From Hymenobacter edaphi (GTDB lineage Bacteria; Bacteroidota; Bacteroidia; Cytophagales; Hymenobacteraceae), in NCBI RefSeq assembly GCF_003258365.1, contig NZ_QHKM01000001.1, positions 1,426,001 to 1,490,000 on the forward strand: 64,000 nucleotides of DNA, in the 5' to 3' direction. Each line of letters begins with the position of its first letter. Within the stretch, counting starts at the first letter, position 1. This document shows, one piece after another, positions 32,905-56,665 of this stretch. The translations under genes and the position numbers were made by a program. A model generated the notes under the pieces. It saw only the letters and a program-made list of their open reading frames with translations. It ran no database searches and was not told where the DNA came from.

Positions 32905-35163
32905 TTACTCCACCGGCGGCTGCGAGGGCAGCTCCCCGCGCAGGCGCTTGTCGTAGGTGAGAGCCACGCGCAGCTGGAAGTAGTCGTACTGCTCGCGCAG
33001 GTGGTCGAATAGGTCGCGCAGGCGGAAATCGGGGCCCAGCTCCTGCACGGCGGTTTTGATGCGGGCGTAGTCGTCCTGGCTGATAAACTCCTCGGTGCGT
33101 AGCTGGTAGCCCCGCTCGTACAAGGCCTCCAGGTGCGACTTGATGGTGCTGGCAGCCAGGCCGCGCTGCTCGGCCACCTGCTCCACCGAGAGGCCCTGCC
33201 GGTGCATCTTCCAGCTGTCGAGGGCGGTGCCGCTGGGCGTGCCGGGGCTGCGCTTTTTGGCCGGCGCGGGGGCGTCGTCCTCGTCGCTGGGCACGTCGGG
33301 CACGTCGTCGGGCGAGGGGGCGCCGGCGTGCTGGGTGATGAGGTCGATAAACCGCTCCCCGTAGGTTTCAAACTTCTTCATGCCCACGCCCGACACGGCC
33401 AGCATGGCGGTGCGGGTGCGGGGCCGCTCGATGGCCATTTCCTGCAGCGTGGCGTCGGAGAAAACCACGTAGGGCGGCACGCCCTGCTCGTCGGCAATCT
33501 GCTTGCGCAGCTGGCGCAGGCGGTCGAACAGCTCGTCGGCAATGGAGGGCAGGCGCTGGCCGGTGGCGGCTTTGGCGGCGCGGCCCTTGGGGGCTTTTTC
33601 GGCCTTCTGCGGCACCTGAAACTGCTTCAGGGCCTGCTTCCTTTCGCCTTTCAGCACCTGCCAACCCAGGTCGGTGAGCTTGAGGGCGTAGCCCTGCTCG
33701 TAGGCAATGTACAGGAGGCCGTCGTTCAGCAATTGGTGCAGGTAGCTCTGCCAGTCGAGAAACGAGAGGTTGCCGCCGGCGCCGAAGGTTTTGATCTGGT
33801 CGTAGCCGCGCGAGACGACGCCCTGGTTGCGGCGGCCCAGCAGCACGTCGCAAATCATCGTGAGCGGGGCGGCTTCGCGGGTGCGGGCCACGGCCGACAG
33901 GGCTTTCTGGGCCAGCTCGGTGCCGTCGAAGGTGGTGGGCGGGTTGCGGCAGATGTCGCAGTTGCCGCAGTCTTTTTCCAGTACCTCGCCGAAGTAAGCC
34001 AGCAGGATGCGGCGGCGGCAGGAAGCGGCTTCGGCAAACTGCTGCATGCGCTCCAGCTTGGTGCTATTCAGCTGGGCCAGGCGCGGGTCGGCGTCCTTGG
34101 TAATCATGTCGCGCAGCTGGGCCACGTCGGCGTACGAGTAGAACAGCACGGCCTCGGCGGGGGCCCCGTCGCGGCCGGCGCGGCCGATTTCCTGGTAGTA
34201 GCCCTCGATGTTCTTGGGCAGGTTGTAGTGCAGCACCCAGCGCACGTTGCTCTTGTCGATGCCCATGCCGAAGGCCACCGTGGCGCAAATCACCTGCAAA
34301 TCGTCGCGCAGAAACTGCTCCTGCACGTCGGAGCGGCTGCGGTCGGTCATGCCCGCGTGGTAGAAACCGGCGCGGATGCCCTTTTCCTTAAGCTTGCCGG
34401 CCAGCGTCTCGCACTGCTTGCGCGAGAGGCAGTACACGATGCCGGCCTCGTTTTCGTGGGTCTTCAGAAAGTTCACCACCGCGTTGACGCGGTCCTGGCC
34501 CGGGCGCACGCTCAGCGAGAGGTTGGGCCGGTCGAACGAGGAGAGGAACACCTTGGGCTCGGTCAGGCGCAGCTGCTGCTGGATGTCGCGCTGGGTGAGG
34601 CGGTCGGCGGTGGCGGTGAGGGCAATGATGGGCACCTCGGGAAACTGCTCGCGCAGCACCCGCAGCTGGGTGTATTCGGGCCGGAAGTCGTGGCCCCAGG
34701 ACGAGATGCAGTGCGCCTCGTCGATGGCGAACATGCTGACTTTGAGCCGGTGCAGAAAGCTCAGGAAGCCTTCGGACAGCAGCTTTTCGGGCGAGACGTA
34801 GAGCAGCTTCAGCATCCCGGCCTGGCAGGCGCGGCCGATGCTGCTCTGCTCGGCCTGCCCGATGCTGGAGTTGATGCAGGCGGCGGATATACCGTTGGCT
34901 TTCAGCGCCTCCACCTGATCTTTCATCAGGGCAATCAGCGGGGAGACGACCACGCACACGCCCTCCTGCACCATGGCCGGTATCTGGAAACACACCGATT
35001 TGCCGCCGCCCGTGGGCATGAGCACGACGGTATCCTGGCCGGAGAGAATCGACTGGATGATATCCTGCTGCATCGGCCGGAACTGGTCGTAGCCGTAGTA
35101 CTGCTTCAAAACGCGCCGGGCCGATTCGAGCGTGGGCGTGAGGGGCTGGGTAGCTGCTAACAT
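32905..35163 (-). CDS. recQ: ATP-dependent DNA helicase RecQ
   Basis: A 752-residue 3'-5' DNA helicase for recombination and repair. Motif I MPTGGGKS, motif II DEAH, motif III ALTATA, motif V FGMGIDK and motif VI QEIGRAGRDG are intact. The zinc site has four Cys in SCRR and CGNCDIC. A winged helix (GGNLSFLDWQSYLHQLLNDG) and HRDC domain (about 535-610) follow. An acidic/Pro linker leads to a C-terminal HTH region (GLSVEQVAEQRGLAASTIKSHL), as in many Bacteroidota RecQ proteins. The ATG at 35163 lies 5 nt behind a TATTTTTA box. Confidence 0.96.
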   Translation of the reverse strand: MLAATQPLTPTLESARRVLKQYYGYDQFRPMQQDIIQSILSGQDTVVLMPTGGGKSVCFQIPAMVQEGVCVVVSPLIALMKDQVEALKANGISAACINSSIGQAEQSSIGRACQAGMLKLLYVSPEKLLSEGFLSFLHRLKVSMFAIDEAHCISSWGHDFRPEYTQLRVLREQFPEVPIIALTATADRLTQRDIQQQLRLTEPKVFLSSFDRPNLSLSVRPGQDRVNAVVNFLKTHENEAGIVYCLSRKQCETLAGKLKEKGIRAGFYHAGMTDRSRSDVQEQFLRDDLQVICATVAFGMGIDKSNVRWVLHYNLPKNIEGYYQEIGRAGRDGAPAEAVLFYSYADVAQLRDMITKDADPRLAQLNSTKLERMQQFAEAASCRRRILLAYFGEVLEKDCGNCDICRNPPTTFDGTELAQKALSAVARTREAAPLTMICDVLLGRRNQGVVSRGYDQIKTFGAGGNLSFLDWQSYLHQLLNDGLLYIAYEQGYALKLTDLGWQVLKGERKQALKQFQVPQKAEKAPKGRAAKAATGQRLPSIADELFDRLRQLRKQIADEQGVPPYVVFSDATLQEMAIERPRTRTAMLAVSGVGMKKFETYGERFIDLITQHAGAPSPDDVPDVPSDEDDAPAPAKKRSPGTPSGTALDSWKMHRQGLSVEQVAEQRGLAASTIKSHLEALYERGYQLRTEEFISQDDYARIKTAVQELGPDFRLRDLFDHLREQYDYFQLRVALTYDKRLRGELPSQPPVE

Positions 35164-35168
35164 CGGGG

Positions 35169-35176
35169 TAAAAATA
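35169..35176 (-). promoter_or_regulatory. -7-like element TATTTTTA before recQ
   Basis: Read on the minus strand, TATTTTTA matches TAnnTTTG except at the last base. It lies 5 nt upstream of the recQ ATG, so a leaderless transcript is predicted. Confidence 0.4.
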
Positions 35177-35359
35177 CGGCGGTTTTTGCGGGAGTCCTAA
35201 GCTAATAAAACTAGAGAAAAGCTAAAATGGTGCGCCGACCGTGGGCAGCAATTTTCGGCTTTGCTTCTGCCCGGCCTCGAACGCGAGGTGGCCAGCGGCA
35301 GTCGCTCAGTATCTTGCCCGCCGGCCGCGCGTTGCCTCGCCCGGCCCGACTTCCCGCTA

Positions 35360-39413: not shown

Positions 39414-40820
39414 ATGGCCGCTCCCACTACGTCCTCCACTCCCACCACCGTCGCCGCCGGCCCCGCCCGCAGCTACGCGCTGCCCATGGCGGCCATGACC
39501 TCGCTGTTCTTCCTGTTCGGGGCCGTCACCAACTTCAACGACGTGCTGATGCCCTACCTCAAGGACGTGTGTCAGCTCACCGACCTGCAGTCTTCGCTGG
39601 TGCAGTTTGCCTTTTTCGGGGCCTACTTCCTGATGTCGTTGCCGGCGGGCTACGTGCTGCGGCGCCTGGGCTACCAGCGCGGCATCGTGCTGGGGCTGCT
39701 GGTGATGGCGGCGGGCGCGCTGCTGTTCGTGCCGGCCGCTAACACGCGCACCTTCGCCGTGTTTCTGCTCGGCCTGGGCGTGCTCGGCGCGGGCGTGACC
39801 TTGCTGCAGGTGGCCGCTAACCCCTACGTTTCGGTGCTCGGGCCGGCCAGCCGCGCCGCCAGCCGCGTGAGCATCGTGGGCGTGGCCAACAACCTCGGCG
39901 GCACCCTCTCGCCGCTGCTCGGCGGCATGCTGCTGTTCGGCGGCTCGGCCGTGCTCAAGGCCCGCCTGGCGGCCCTGCCCGCCGCCGAACGGCTGGCCGA
40001 AGAAGCCACCTTGGTGAAAGCGCCTTACCTGGGTCTGGCCGCGTTTCTGGCCGTGCTGGCCGGGGTGTTCTTCCTGCTGAAGCTGCCCGAAATCGAAGGC
40101 ATGCAGGCCGACAACGAAGCCGACACCCCGGACCTGACGGCCGTCAGTGGCCGCAAATCGGCGCTGGACTTCCCCCACCTGCGCCTGGGCGTGGTGGCCA
40201 TTTTCCTCTACGTGGGCGTCGAAGTGGGCCTGGGCTCCTTCCTGATCCGCTACGGCGAGGCCCAGGGCATCACCCAGCTCAGCGACTTCACCCAGGCGCT
40301 GGTGCGCGGGCTAAATGTGGCTACCAACTTCCTGGCCGTGCTCTTCGGGCAGGCCCCGGCCGCCATCGACACCACTGCCGGCTTCACCAAGGCCGTGGGC
40401 GCGGTGCTGGTAGCCTCGTACTGGTTTGGCTCCTTGGTGGGCCGGGTGGTGGGCATTCCGCTGCTTACCCGCATCAACGACCGGAAAGCCCTGGCGGCCG
40501 TGTGCGCCGCCGGGGTGGTGTTCGTGCTGGCCTCCATTGCGGTGCGCGGCGAAGCCGCCCTGTGGCTGGTGGTGCTCTGCGGGCTGATGAACAGCATCAT
40601 GTGGCCGGTGATTTTCCCGCTGGCCATCAAGGGCCTCGGGCCGTTCACCAAGCAGGGGTCGTCGTACCTGATCATGGCCATCGTGGGCGGGGCCATCGTG
40701 CCGCTGCTGATGGGCTGGGCGGCCACCTACGCCGGCGGCCTGCGTGTGGCCTTCCTGCTGCCCGCCCTTTGCTACGCCTACCTGCTCTACTACGCCGTGA
40801 GCGGCTACCGCGTGCGGTAA
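39414..40820 (+). CDS. MFS sugar permease, FucP/GluP type
   Basis: A 468-residue transporter with twelve predicted membrane helices. The FucP-family features are present: MTSLFFLFGAVTNFNDVLMPYLKDVCQL near the start, FAFFGAYFLMSLPAGYVLRRLGYQRGI, LLQVAANPYVSVLG and a late MWPVIFPLAIKGLG. Such proteins import fucose, glucose or galactose with protons. A long central loop (about 220-260) is typical. ATG 39414 is preferred over an earlier frame start that would overlap the methyltransferase promoter. No sugar-catabolism genes are adjacent, so the substrate is open. Confidence 0.9.
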   Translation: MAAPTTSSTPTTVAAGPARSYALPMAAMTSLFFLFGAVTNFNDVLMPYLKDVCQLTDLQSSLVQFAFFGAYFLMSLPAGYVLRRLGYQRGIVLGLLVMAAGALLFVPAANTRTFAVFLLGLGVLGAGVTLLQVAANPYVSVLGPASRAASRVSIVGVANNLGGTLSPLLGGMLLFGGSAVLKARLAALPAAERLAEEATLVKAPYLGLAAFLAVLAGVFFLLKLPEIEGMQADNEADTPDLTAVSGRKSALDFPHLRLGVVAIFLYVGVEVGLGSFLIRYGEAQGITQLSDFTQALVRGLNVATNFLAVLFGQAPAAIDTTAGFTKAVGAVLVASYWFGSLVGRVVGIPLLTRINDRKALAAVCAAGVVFVLASIAVRGEAALWLVVLCGLMNSIMWPVIFPLAIKGLGPFTKQGSSYLIMAIVGGAIVPLLMGWAATYAGGLRVAFLLPALCYAYLLYYAVSGYRVR

Positions 40821-53411: not shown

Positions 53412-53442
53412 AACAGATTTGTTGGAACGCGTAGCAATGGCC

Positions 53443-53547
53443 GTCATGTCGAGCGAAGTCGAGACATCTCGCGTGCTGATGCCAGATAGTAAGCTCTTTG
53501 TTGAACGAGAGAATTACTATCAAGCCAGATTCTTCGCTCTGAATGAC
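53443..53547. repeat. Dispersed inverted repeat (GTCATGTCGAGC type), degenerate
   Basis: The left arm begins GTCATGTCGAGCGAAG and the right arm ends CTTCGCTCTGAATGAC. The arms match in blocks only, showing decay. The central part holds GTGCTGATGCCAGATAGTAA and TTACTATCAAGCC, with TTTGTTGAACGAG between them. It lies between paaE and the paaA operator. Confidence 0.75.
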
Positions 53548-54573: not shown

Positions 54574-54595
54574 TTGCCTGACGGACGCCTCGTTT

Positions 54596-54770
54596 CGCCT
54601 CACCCCTAGCCCCTCTCCGAAAAGGAGAGGGGAACTAGCAAGTAGTTTTAGCTTCCTCCTTTCCCCAAACCCTTAATACCTCTGCCACCTGGCATAGACA
54701 TAGTTTCTAGACTAAAAACTAGAGCTAGTCCCCCCTCTCCTTTTCGGAGAGGGGGCTAGGGGGTGAGGCG
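54596..54770. repeat. Nested inverted repeat between paaA and paaB
   Basis: The outer ends CGCCTCACCCCTAG and CTAGGGGGTGAGGCG pair with one extra G. Each arm also folds on itself through CCCCTCTCC-GAAAA-GGAGAGGGG on the left and its counterpart on the right. Between them lies about 75 bp of lower-GC sequence. The element fills nearly the whole gap, ending 9 nt before the paaB ATG, and could act as a processing or attenuation site. Confidence 0.8.
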
Positions 54771-54778
54771 ACTACAAC

Positions 54779-55077: not shown

Positions 55078-55875
55078 ATGCAGGAAACCCACACCATCGT
55101 CGTGCCCGACGTGTCGGCCGAAGTGCGCCAGCAGCTGCTTGACTACGTGCTGCAGCTGGCCGATACCAGCCTGATCCTGGCCCACCGCCTCTCGGAGTGG
55201 TGCGGGCACGGCCCCATTCTGGAGCAGGACCTGGCCATGGCCAATATCTCGCTCGACCTGCTGGGCGAGGCGCGCAGCTACTACCAGTACGCCGCCGAGC
55301 TGGAAGGCCGGGGCCGCACCGAGGACGACCTGGCCTACCTGCGCAGCGCTGTGGAGTACCGCAACCCCTTGCTGGTGGAGCAGCCCAACGGGGACTTCGC
55401 CCACACCATCGTGCGGCAGTTTCTGTACGACGCCTTCCACTACCACCTGCTGCTGCAGCTGCAGGCCGGCCCCGATCAGCAGCTGGCCGCCATTGCCGAA
55501 AAATCGGTGAAGGAAGCCGCCTACCACGTGAAATGGAGCGCCGAGTGGATCATCCGCCTCGGCGACGGCACCAACGAAAGCCGCCGCCGCGTGGAAGCTG
55601 CCATCAACGCCCTCTGGCGCTACAGCGGCGAGCTGACCACGCCCTCGGCCACCGAGCAGGCCCTGCAACAGGCCGGCTTCGTGCCCGATTACGCCGCCAT
55701 TCAAGGGCAGATCGACGAGCACGTGGCGCGGGTATTCGCGGAAGCCACGCTGCCGGTGCCGCAGGGCGTATTTATGCAGAAGGGCGGCAAAACCGGCCGC
55801 CACTCCGAGCACCTGGGCTACCTACTGGCCGAGCTGCAGTACCTGCAGCGCACCTATCCGGGCCTGACCTGGTAG
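55078..55875 (+). CDS. paaC: 1,2-phenylacetyl-CoA epoxidase subunit PaaC
   Basis: A 265-residue ferritin-like subunit that pairs with PaaA. The pattern YVLQLADTSLILAHRLSEWCGHGPILEQDLAMANISLDLLGEAR and AEKSVKEAAYHVKWSAEWIIRLGDGT is characteristic. The subunit keeps the fold but does not hold the catalytic iron centre in characterised systems. It is followed by a 92-bp dispersed repeat that runs into the start of paaD. Confidence 0.96.
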   Translation: MQETHTIVVPDVSAEVRQQLLDYVLQLADTSLILAHRLSEWCGHGPILEQDLAMANISLDLLGEARSYYQYAAELEGRGRTEDDLAYLRSAVEYRNPLLVEQPNGDFAHTIVRQFLYDAFHYHLLLQLQAGPDQQLAAIAEKSVKEAAYHVKWSAEWIIRLGDGTNESRRRVEAAINALWRYSGELTTPSATEQALQQAGFVPDYAAIQGQIDEHVARVFAEATLPVPQGVFMQKGGKTGRHSEHLGYLLAELQYLQRTYPGLTW

Positions 55876-55900
55876 AGCCCGAACGCTAATCCATTCTGAA

Positions 55901-55992
55901 CGTCATGCTGAGCGAAGTCGAAGCATCTCTACTGATAGTAATTTCTTATTCAACGAAGCGGGAGAGATGCTTCGACTTCGCTCAGCATGACG
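55901..55992. repeat. Dispersed inverted repeat with perfect 30-bp arms between paaC and paaD
   Basis: The left arm (55901-55930), beginning CGTCATGCTGAGCGAAGTCG, is perfectly complementary to the right arm (55963-55992). A 32-nt centre holds AGTAATTTCTTATTCAACGA. It is the best preserved copy in the window. The right arm ends in CAGCATGACG, and its ATG is the start codon of paaD. Confidence 0.9.
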
Positions 55993-56496
55993 CCCAATAA
56001 CAACTCACCCTTCCCCACCGAGGACCGCATCTGGCAGCTGCTGGAAGAAGTATCCGACCCCGAGGTGCCGGTGCTCAGCATCCTGGACCTGGGCATCGTG
56101 CGCGGGGTGCGGCTGGAGGGCGAGGAGGTGCACGTGACCATCACGCCGACGTATTCGGGCTGCCCGGCCATGAACACCATTGCCACCGATATCCGGCTGC
56201 GGCTGCTGGCCGAGGGCATCACCAAGCTGCACATCCATAACCAGCTCAGTCCGGCCTGGACGACGGCCTGGATGTCGGAGGCCGGCAAGCAGAAGCTGGA
56301 GGCCTACGGCATTGCCCCGCCCCAGGACGCCACCGGCCACGTGCTGAACCTGTTCGGGCAGGACCCGGTGCTGCGCTGCCCGCACTGCCAGTCCACCAAC
56401 ACCCGGCTCATCAGCCAGTTCGGCTCCACCGCCTGCAAAGCGCATTACCAGTGCAACGACTGCCTGGAGCCTTTTGATTACTTCAAGTGCCACTGA
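55987..56496 (+). CDS. paaD: Phenylacetate degradation protein PaaD (MIP18/DUF59 domain)
   Basis: A 169-residue protein needed for phenylacetyl-CoA epoxidation, probably by supporting Fe-S assembly in PaaE. The DUF59 part has IWQLLEEVSDPEVPVLSILDLGIVRGV and TPTYSGCPAMNTIATDI; the C-terminal zinc ribbon has Cys pairs CPHC and CNDC. The only plausible start, ATG 55987, lies inside the right arm of the dispersed inverted repeat, so the first residues (MTP) come from repeat DNA. This implies the repeat inserted at or defines the gene's 5' end. A strong hairpin would occlude the start. Confidence 0.94.
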   Translation: MTPNNNSPFPTEDRIWQLLEEVSDPEVPVLSILDLGIVRGVRLEGEEVHVTITPTYSGCPAMNTIATDIRLRLLAEGITKLHIHNQLSPAWTTAWMSEAGKQKLEAYGIAPPQDATGHVLNLFGQDPVLRCPHCQSTNTRLISQFGSTACKAHYQCNDCLEPFDYFKCH

Positions 56497-56505
56497 TTGG
56501 CCTTC

Positions 56506-56623
56506 AGCCCGTCATGTCGAGCTTGCCGAGACATCTCGCGTGCTGACTTCCACAAGTAACTTCTGTTCAACGAGCAGAATACTATCAGGCGAGATGTCTC
56601 GGCTGCGCTTGACATGACGGGCT
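56506..56623. repeat. Dispersed inverted repeat between paaD and paaH
   Basis: The outer arms AGCCCGTCATGTCGAGCTTG and its near complement (ending GACATGACGGGCT) enclose inner arms CCGAGACATCTCGC and GCGAGATGTCTCGG. The centre has TTCTGTTCAACGAGCAGAA, itself a small palindrome, and shares the TTCAACGA motif with the copy at 55901. It begins 10 nt after the paaD stop. Confidence 0.85.
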
Positions 56624-56665
56624 AATGACCTGACTCCTGACCCTTCCCTCCTACCTTATTCCCGC

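Follow-up and report, generated by a model that had tools for sequence, protein, structure and literature searches.

The closest described relatives of the repeat treated here are the CGTC-tagged REPs, a class reported in Bacteroidetes in which a single unit has an 8-9 bp stem, a 4-5 nt loop and a short unpaired tail (Di Nocera et al., 2013, PMC3733652). They share with the repeat of our locus the outer CGTC tag, the adjacent A-T pair, the arrangement as head-to-head dimers and the dispersed occurrence. REPs inside ORFs and GTAG ends that give stop codons are described there as well, many N-terminal cases being regarded as probably extragenic, whereas a CGTC end acting as sole start codon is not described in the sections considered. 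The REPINs likewise consist of two inverted REPs and a spacer that form one hairpin (Bertels and Rainey, 2011, PMC3116915); however, they accompany a RAYT transposase, while no such repeat lies near the one Y1 transposase gene identified here. Similar to the repeat at paaD, the palindromic elements of Rickettsia add codons to conserved genes (PMC2229807, PMC10969869), but these are in-frame peptide insertions, whereas our repeat gives a start codon plus two residues. The pneumococcal BOX elements contribute the stop codons of 36 CDSs and the start codons of some expressed ORFs, but the latter match only hypothetical CDSs (PMC3049150), while paaD is a conserved enzyme-maturation gene. Moreover, coupling by overlapping genes (PMC10666635, PMC6728339) has its counterpart in the apparently ancestral 7-nt overlap of paaC and paaD, which the window has lost. 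The repeat class is known, but the literature searched, which covered few subscription journals, yielded no account of its use as start codon in conserved genes of two families, or of any CGTC repeat that is the sole start codon.

The window, the 64,000-nt stretch of the Hymenobacter edaphi genome analysed here, carries such a repeat between paaC and paaD (Table 1). The perfect 30-bp arms claimed in the initial annotation are indeed present, being 30 nt long, 100% complementary and 32 nt apart, and their match goes beyond chance, as the control counts show: the 22-mer TTCGACTTCGCTCAGCATGACG with up to three mismatches hits both arms and one three-mismatch site in the window (mean of 100 shuffles 0.00), the 30-mer arm with up to three mismatches has 20 genome-wide matches including both arms (control 0), and the 12-mer end GCTCAGCATGAC occurs 109 times in the genome versus twice for the reversed pattern. 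Many of these ends lie in outward-facing pairs, 36 distinct dimers of the window subtype and a sister subtype were recovered among the loci read, and a stricter form of the repeat end is present in 11 of the 12 related genomes searched. The junction repeat is a dispersed CGTC-tagged REP in a head-to-head dimer: CGTC is outermost with an adjacent A-T pair, the tags are on the outside of the dimer, the copies are many (109 ends versus 2), and no dedicated transposase of the PF01797/Y1 family, which the search covered, stands beside the repeats; judged by eye, the single unit looks like an imperfect stem. An inverted REP pair forming a hairpin is also what defines a REPIN, but no RAYT bordered by this REP was seen at the PF01797 locus examined, since GCTCAGCATGAC and CTCGACATGAC are absent from the 3,216 bases around the one PF01797 (Y1 transposase) gene found in the genome. 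Rfam gave no match above threshold at the repeat, the best being RF02901 with 57 bits (gathering threshold 97) and the remaining ones miRNA-type models. Further CGTC-type repeats occur in the paa cluster at 53442-53463 of the window (paaE/paaA gap) and at 56499-56630, between paaD and the next gene, and the paaA/paaB gap (54595-54771) is filled by a long inverted repeat of a different kind, with 23-nt perfect and outer imperfect arms. Elsewhere, two dimers contain a second repeat nested in their loop (L100, G000:C6, ~40136-40282; L220, G000:C7, ~35127-35280), so that dimers themselves serve as insertion sites.

Table 1. Features at the paaC/paaD junction of H. edaphi, in positions of the window.
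Feature	Position	Strand	Basis
paaC, 1,2-phenylacetyl-CoA epoxidase subunit; stop TAG 55873-55875	55078..55875	+	TIGR02158, 294 bits vs 133.35; ORF
Putative relic of ancestral paaD start, CTGGTAG; frame now ends after 6 codons at TAA	55869..55889	+	Comparison with 103 relatives
Left arm of REP dimer, start CGTCAT	55901..55930	+	Inverted-repeat match
Possible leader ORF (putative translation); left-arm ATG, 31 codons, stop 11-13 nt past the A of the paaD start	55905..56000	+	
Inter-arm loop, 32 nt	55931..55962	+	Inverted-repeat match
Right arm of REP dimer, end ATGACG, holds paaD start codon	55963..55992	+	Inverted-repeat match
Possible 7-codon leader ORF (putative translation); TGA overlaps paaD ATG	55967..55990	+	
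ATGA: paaD start codon and overlapping out-of-frame TGA	55987..55990	+	Sequence
paaD, 169 aa, start is the repeat's ATG	55987..56496	+	TIGR02159, PF01883, PF23451

The paa genes were named by NCBIfam profiles, and PaaD reaches 190.3 bits with TIGR02159 (cut-off 108.15), its closest counterpart among the named genome contigs, a set that possibly omits the genome of the window itself, being that of Hymenobacter jeollabukensis (97%). That the start codon of paaD is repeat sequence, as initially annotated, was confirmed: the ATG (55987-55989) lies inside the right arm, three bases before its last base at 55992. The accompanying statement that these repeats can supply coding sequence is correct as well, but here it is limited to ATG ACG, that is Met-Thr. 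ORF reading revealed no in-frame ATG, GTG or TTG between the upstream stop and 55987, and the next in-frame candidate is a GTG at codon 27, inside the conserved domain, which is matched from residue 12. From the paaC stop to the paaD start there are 111 nt, and a coupling stop/start overlap is therefore absent from the window. As judged from dN and dS, PaaD is still under purifying selection (dN 0.0112 and dS 0.165 versus L082, dN 0.0297 and dS 0.423 versus L109; the rows versus L083 and L084 were misaligned and left out).

Of 204 genomes in the family, 104 have a PaaD match with an E value of 1e-50 or better; 103 of these loci were analysed, a partial match in G126 being left out. In 64 of these 103 relatives the first 7 nt of paaD are also the last 7 nt of paaC, reading A/GTGGTAR in 63 loci and ATGGTGA in one, and 39 have a spacer. 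When the outer group of the tree is set aside (17 rows, two with the overlap), the numbers are 62/86 and 24/86. Among three more distant Bacteroidota, L036 and L037 have the same overlap, and L035 has the start directly after the stop. We read the 7-nt overlap as ancestral. All 64 overlap loci have A or G as first letter of the start codon, and six of the 39 spacer loci, among them the window and L082, have C at this position, so that CTG stands in the window where the 64 relatives have ATG or GTG. On a quick tree, built from PaaC and PaaD and thus from the same genes whose junction is scored, at least 18 changes between overlap and spacer are needed, 13 of them forced by well-supported branches, and gene transfer may contribute to this pattern. 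PaaC and PaaD of the window are closer to the proteins of G058 and G070, which carry another genus code, than to those of G005 and G006 of its own genus (loci in that grouping: L081 and L082 versus L109, L110, L083 and L084), possibly by gene transfer or as a grouping effect.

Outside the outer group, a repeat was recognisable by motif in 23 of the 24 spacers, six being CGTC-REPs, three GAGACGC palindromes and 14 AGCT-type repeats, of which L149 combines the AGCT type with a CATTGCGAGC palindrome; in the L083 spacer the motif scan matched none of the repeat types, and in the outer group it matched 4 of 15 spacers. The GAGACGC type has 127, 33 and 28 genome-wide matches in its three genomes, and the AGCT type is less well supported, its exact 17-mer being present in 11 of 13 genomes and only once in some. 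Gaps above 60 nt occur in 36 of the 103 loci between paaC and paaD versus two between paaB and paaC, by the same kind of measure, and therefore either paaC/paaD is unusually tolerant to insertion or paaB/paaC is intolerant. AGCT-type heptamers were seen both before the paaD start and in the first codons of L140, L159, L163, L165, L166, L181, L183-L187, L189 and L194, where the N-terminus thus seems to be repeat-derived, too.

The repeat's ATG is the paaD start in three of the six CGTC-REP spacers, namely the window, L082 and L116 (G080), and in the other three (L111, L113, L114) paaD starts downstream of the repeat. H. jeollabukensis (L082), the sister of the window, has the same donated start, but most of its copy is lost and a lone GCGCTCAGCATGAC remnant stands beside a second repeat. 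L116 branches outside the group that includes the window, L083 and three overlap loci, and is probably a separate case, so that at least two start donations to paaD are likely. Parsimony alone does not decide this, as three gains cost the same as one gain and two losses in the 7-row clade; separate gains are preferred because the overlap sequence of L084, L109 and L110 resembles the one found in L115 and L118, which lie outside the clade. The comparison of paaD 5' ends proposed in the initial annotation showed another start and another N-terminus in relatives without the repeat, and therefore did not yield the shared N-terminus that had been named as speaking against a repeat-borne start. An awkward relative is G006, whose paaD (L083) starts with ATGACG at +112 and in which no inverted arms of at least 10 bp were found; it may be a decayed repeat copy or an independent start.

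By reading repeat ends in the relatives we found a second family with a repeat-end start, an FkbH-domain gene (L287, L288, L290), although the TIGR01686 score was below the curated cut-off in all three FkbH-domain proteins tried. Orthologues at E 1e-80 or better are present in 68 of the 204 genomes, and among the best 30 loci, which were examined, the repeat end is the only ATG before the WDLDDT motif in ten. Seven of them have a GCATGAC-type start (L327, L328, L332, L341, L342, L343, L356) and three start with a different repeat ending in GGATGAC (L331, L335, L336); L352, with a wrong automatic 'REP' label, and L340 and L345, with another ATG at -14, were not counted. In L332, L341 and L356 the repeat ATG is also the only ATG, GTG or TTG, whereas a GTG or TTG lies further upstream in the other seven. 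Between left arm and right end, 12 of 12 letters agree for L327, L328 and L332, 11 for L335, L336 and L342, 10 for L343, 8 for L341 and 7 for L331 and L356, with L342 as the exception in which the right arm, not the left, has changed. Thus, in these few cases, as in paaD of L082, left arms appear to decay while the ATG is kept. Such retention is expected for any ATG in use. GACAACT-like heptamers were also noticed in or near the first FkbH codons of L329, L330, L334, L346 and L352-L354.

Donation is rare: of the 134 repeat ends that were read in the window genome, one is a clear case. Reading 100 of the 109 GCTCAGCATGAC ends outward gave at least 100 open codons in 16 for the ATG frame and in 21 for the control frame, and paaD is the only recognisable gene without another start before its domain among these 100 ends (7 of the 16 long frames were checked with Pfam and the rest judged by eye); the 34 CTCGACATGAC ends showed no clear donated start by eye. 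As repeat ATGs yield no surplus of long frames over the control frame in this genome, a general excess of repeat-borne starts was rejected. In the relatives (12 genomes, 11 of them with the repeat), 166 ends of five variants at 78 loci were surveyed, giving 24 open frames of at least 80 codons versus 29 in the control frame. FkbH is the only clear gene among the inspected ends; for L263-L292 only the GCTCAGCATGAC ends were inspected singly and those of other variants merely counted. The protein of L357, which presumably resembles MoaE, is ambiguous as a donation due to an in-frame TTG 13 codons further on.

The RNA from 55860 to 56060 is predicted to fold with -80.6 kcal/mol (z -6.63; none of 200 shuffles was as good), and the predicted probability that the paaD start codon is unpaired is 0.0005. 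The cost of freeing positions -15 to +15 around the start, computed with 120-nt flanks, is 39.7 kcal/mol, the highest of all 103 loci, versus 13.0 (median) and at most 18.6 kcal/mol in the 64 overlap loci; these energies leave out ribosomes, co-transcriptional folding and RNases. The 39 spacer loci, whose starts were mostly picked automatically, have a median of 6.9 kcal/mol, which argues that the burial is due to this particular repeat and not to a spacer as such. The other two donated starts cost 26.9 (L116) and 6.7 kcal/mol (L082), and L196, with an automatically picked and possibly wrong start, comes close to the window with 33.7 kcal/mol. The initial idea that a hairpin buries the start codon is hence supported by the predicted fold, and it is likely from this model that the hairpin throttles PaaD translation. 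The suggestion that the repeat couples PaaD to paaC translation fared the opposite way, as the overlap exists already in 64 of 103 relatives and the two genes are separated in the window: the repeat thus appears to have removed an ancestral coupling rather than created one. Coupling drops steeply with distance in both organisms tested, E. coli and Haloferax, neither of which belongs to the Bacteroidetes, and is nearly lost at ~20-38 nt (PMC10666635). Furthermore, Bacteroidetes make little use of Shine-Dalgarno sequences, even at overlaps (PMC6728339).

With moderate confidence we favor the explanation that a REP dimer inserted at the paaC/paaD junction, donated the start and left PaaD uncoupled and reduced. 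Each intact repeat end carries an outward ATG and an overlapping TGA, since CGTCAT reads ATGACG on the other strand, and an in-frame end near a gene start could substitute for a lost start. The CGTC-tagged dimer would have inserted at a junction with the ancestral overlap, the old start would have turned into CTG, and the outward terminal ATGACG would have taken over, yielding Met-Thr and a new, short N-terminal segment. The sequences compared here show the repeat, the loss of the overlap, the start within the repeat, the continued purifying selection and the predicted burial; for lower translation, the route of the ribosome to the start and the reason for tolerance we infer the following. As the start lies in a 30-bp stem far behind the paaC stop, PaaD synthesis is probably uncoupled from that of PaaC and reduced, and the limiting step would be that the stem opens or is cleaved, with access perhaps returning by translation of leader ORFs across the hairpin or by RNase III cleavage of the duplex. 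PaaD is reportedly indispensable in vivo, dispensable in vitro and similar to SufT (PMC4498308), and therefore small amounts may suffice; the reduction may be tolerated since PaaD presumably acts as a maturation factor and not as a subunit of the enzyme complex.

Two alternatives concern how ribosomes reach the start. Termination and reinitiation could have kept a coupling anew, a leader ORF through the hairpin handing ribosomes to paaD at or near the ATGA. Frames of this kind are present at the three donated paaD starts and are clearest in L116 and L082: in L116 a 41-codon frame begins at the old start (GTG at -7), crosses the hairpin and ends with a TGA that overlaps the paaD ATG, in L082 an ATG at +19 leads over 39 codons to a TAA, directly followed by an ATG and seven codons up to a TGA overlapping the paaD ATG, and in the window an ATG at +29 leads over 31 codons to a stop just beyond the paaD start. 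However, such through-frames are a by-product of the repeat, as 23 of 72 readings of the 36 dimers end at ATGA versus 25.7% with shuffled loops, and with frequencies this similar selection for through-ORFs is not supported; moreover, the first step in the window spans 29 nt, a distance that largely abolishes coupling in other organisms (PMC10666635), so that we regard such a relay as unlikely. Alternatively, the hairpin could be a processing site at which RNase III cuts the duplex and frees the start on the processed mRNA. A perfect stem of 30 bp and the reported cutting of Correia-element transcripts (PMC10969869, PMC2229807) are in line with this, but the left arms have decayed in some FkbH loci and the L082 copy is mostly lost, hence the duplex is not generally kept, and processing of this kind seems quite improbable to us.

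The remaining alternatives concern the start codon itself and the purpose of the hairpin. It is very improbable that the ATG is native and the repeat merely landed alongside with a coincidental match; L083, which starts with ATGACG in the absence of a recognisable palindrome, speaks for this, but in the window ATGACG belongs to a perfect 30-nt arm and to the other genome copies of the repeat, and paaD starts elsewhere in 64 of 103 relatives. We give hardly any credence to a non-standard or downstream PaaD start that leaves the repeat untranslated: repeats at ORF N-termini were often judged extragenic in other genomes (PMC3733652), but 55987 is the only ATG, GTG or TTG in frame from the upstream stop to codon 27, and a downstream start is opposed by the conserved domain, which has already begun at residue 12. 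Equally hard to credit is a hairpin selected as regulatory switch for PaaD, despite the exceptional opening cost, because unrelated repeats occupy the same junction in other species and the FkbH orthologues keep the ATG although several of them have a decayed left arm (in L342 the right arm has changed).

Taken with the FkbH-domain gene, insertion with start donation at paaD hints, as a tentative generalization that we hold to be somewhat less probable than its opposite, that CGTC-tagged repeat ends act as portable start codons which replace a lost native start and rewrite the N-terminus. Repeat-end start codons should not be written off as annotation errors. Furthermore, the window offers a direct test case for initiation inside a 30-bp stem in a phylum that is sparing with Shine-Dalgarno signals. 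A conserved stop/start overlap was lost many times to spacers, mostly in Hymenobacter-type genomes with one or another of several unrelated repeats, which makes this junction a natural experiment on the evolution of gene starts, and the repeat itself has turned into the start codon in two gene families. If portable starts also hold in other phyla with CGTC repeats, start codons would be replaced from this source recurrently and with too little notice in annotation.
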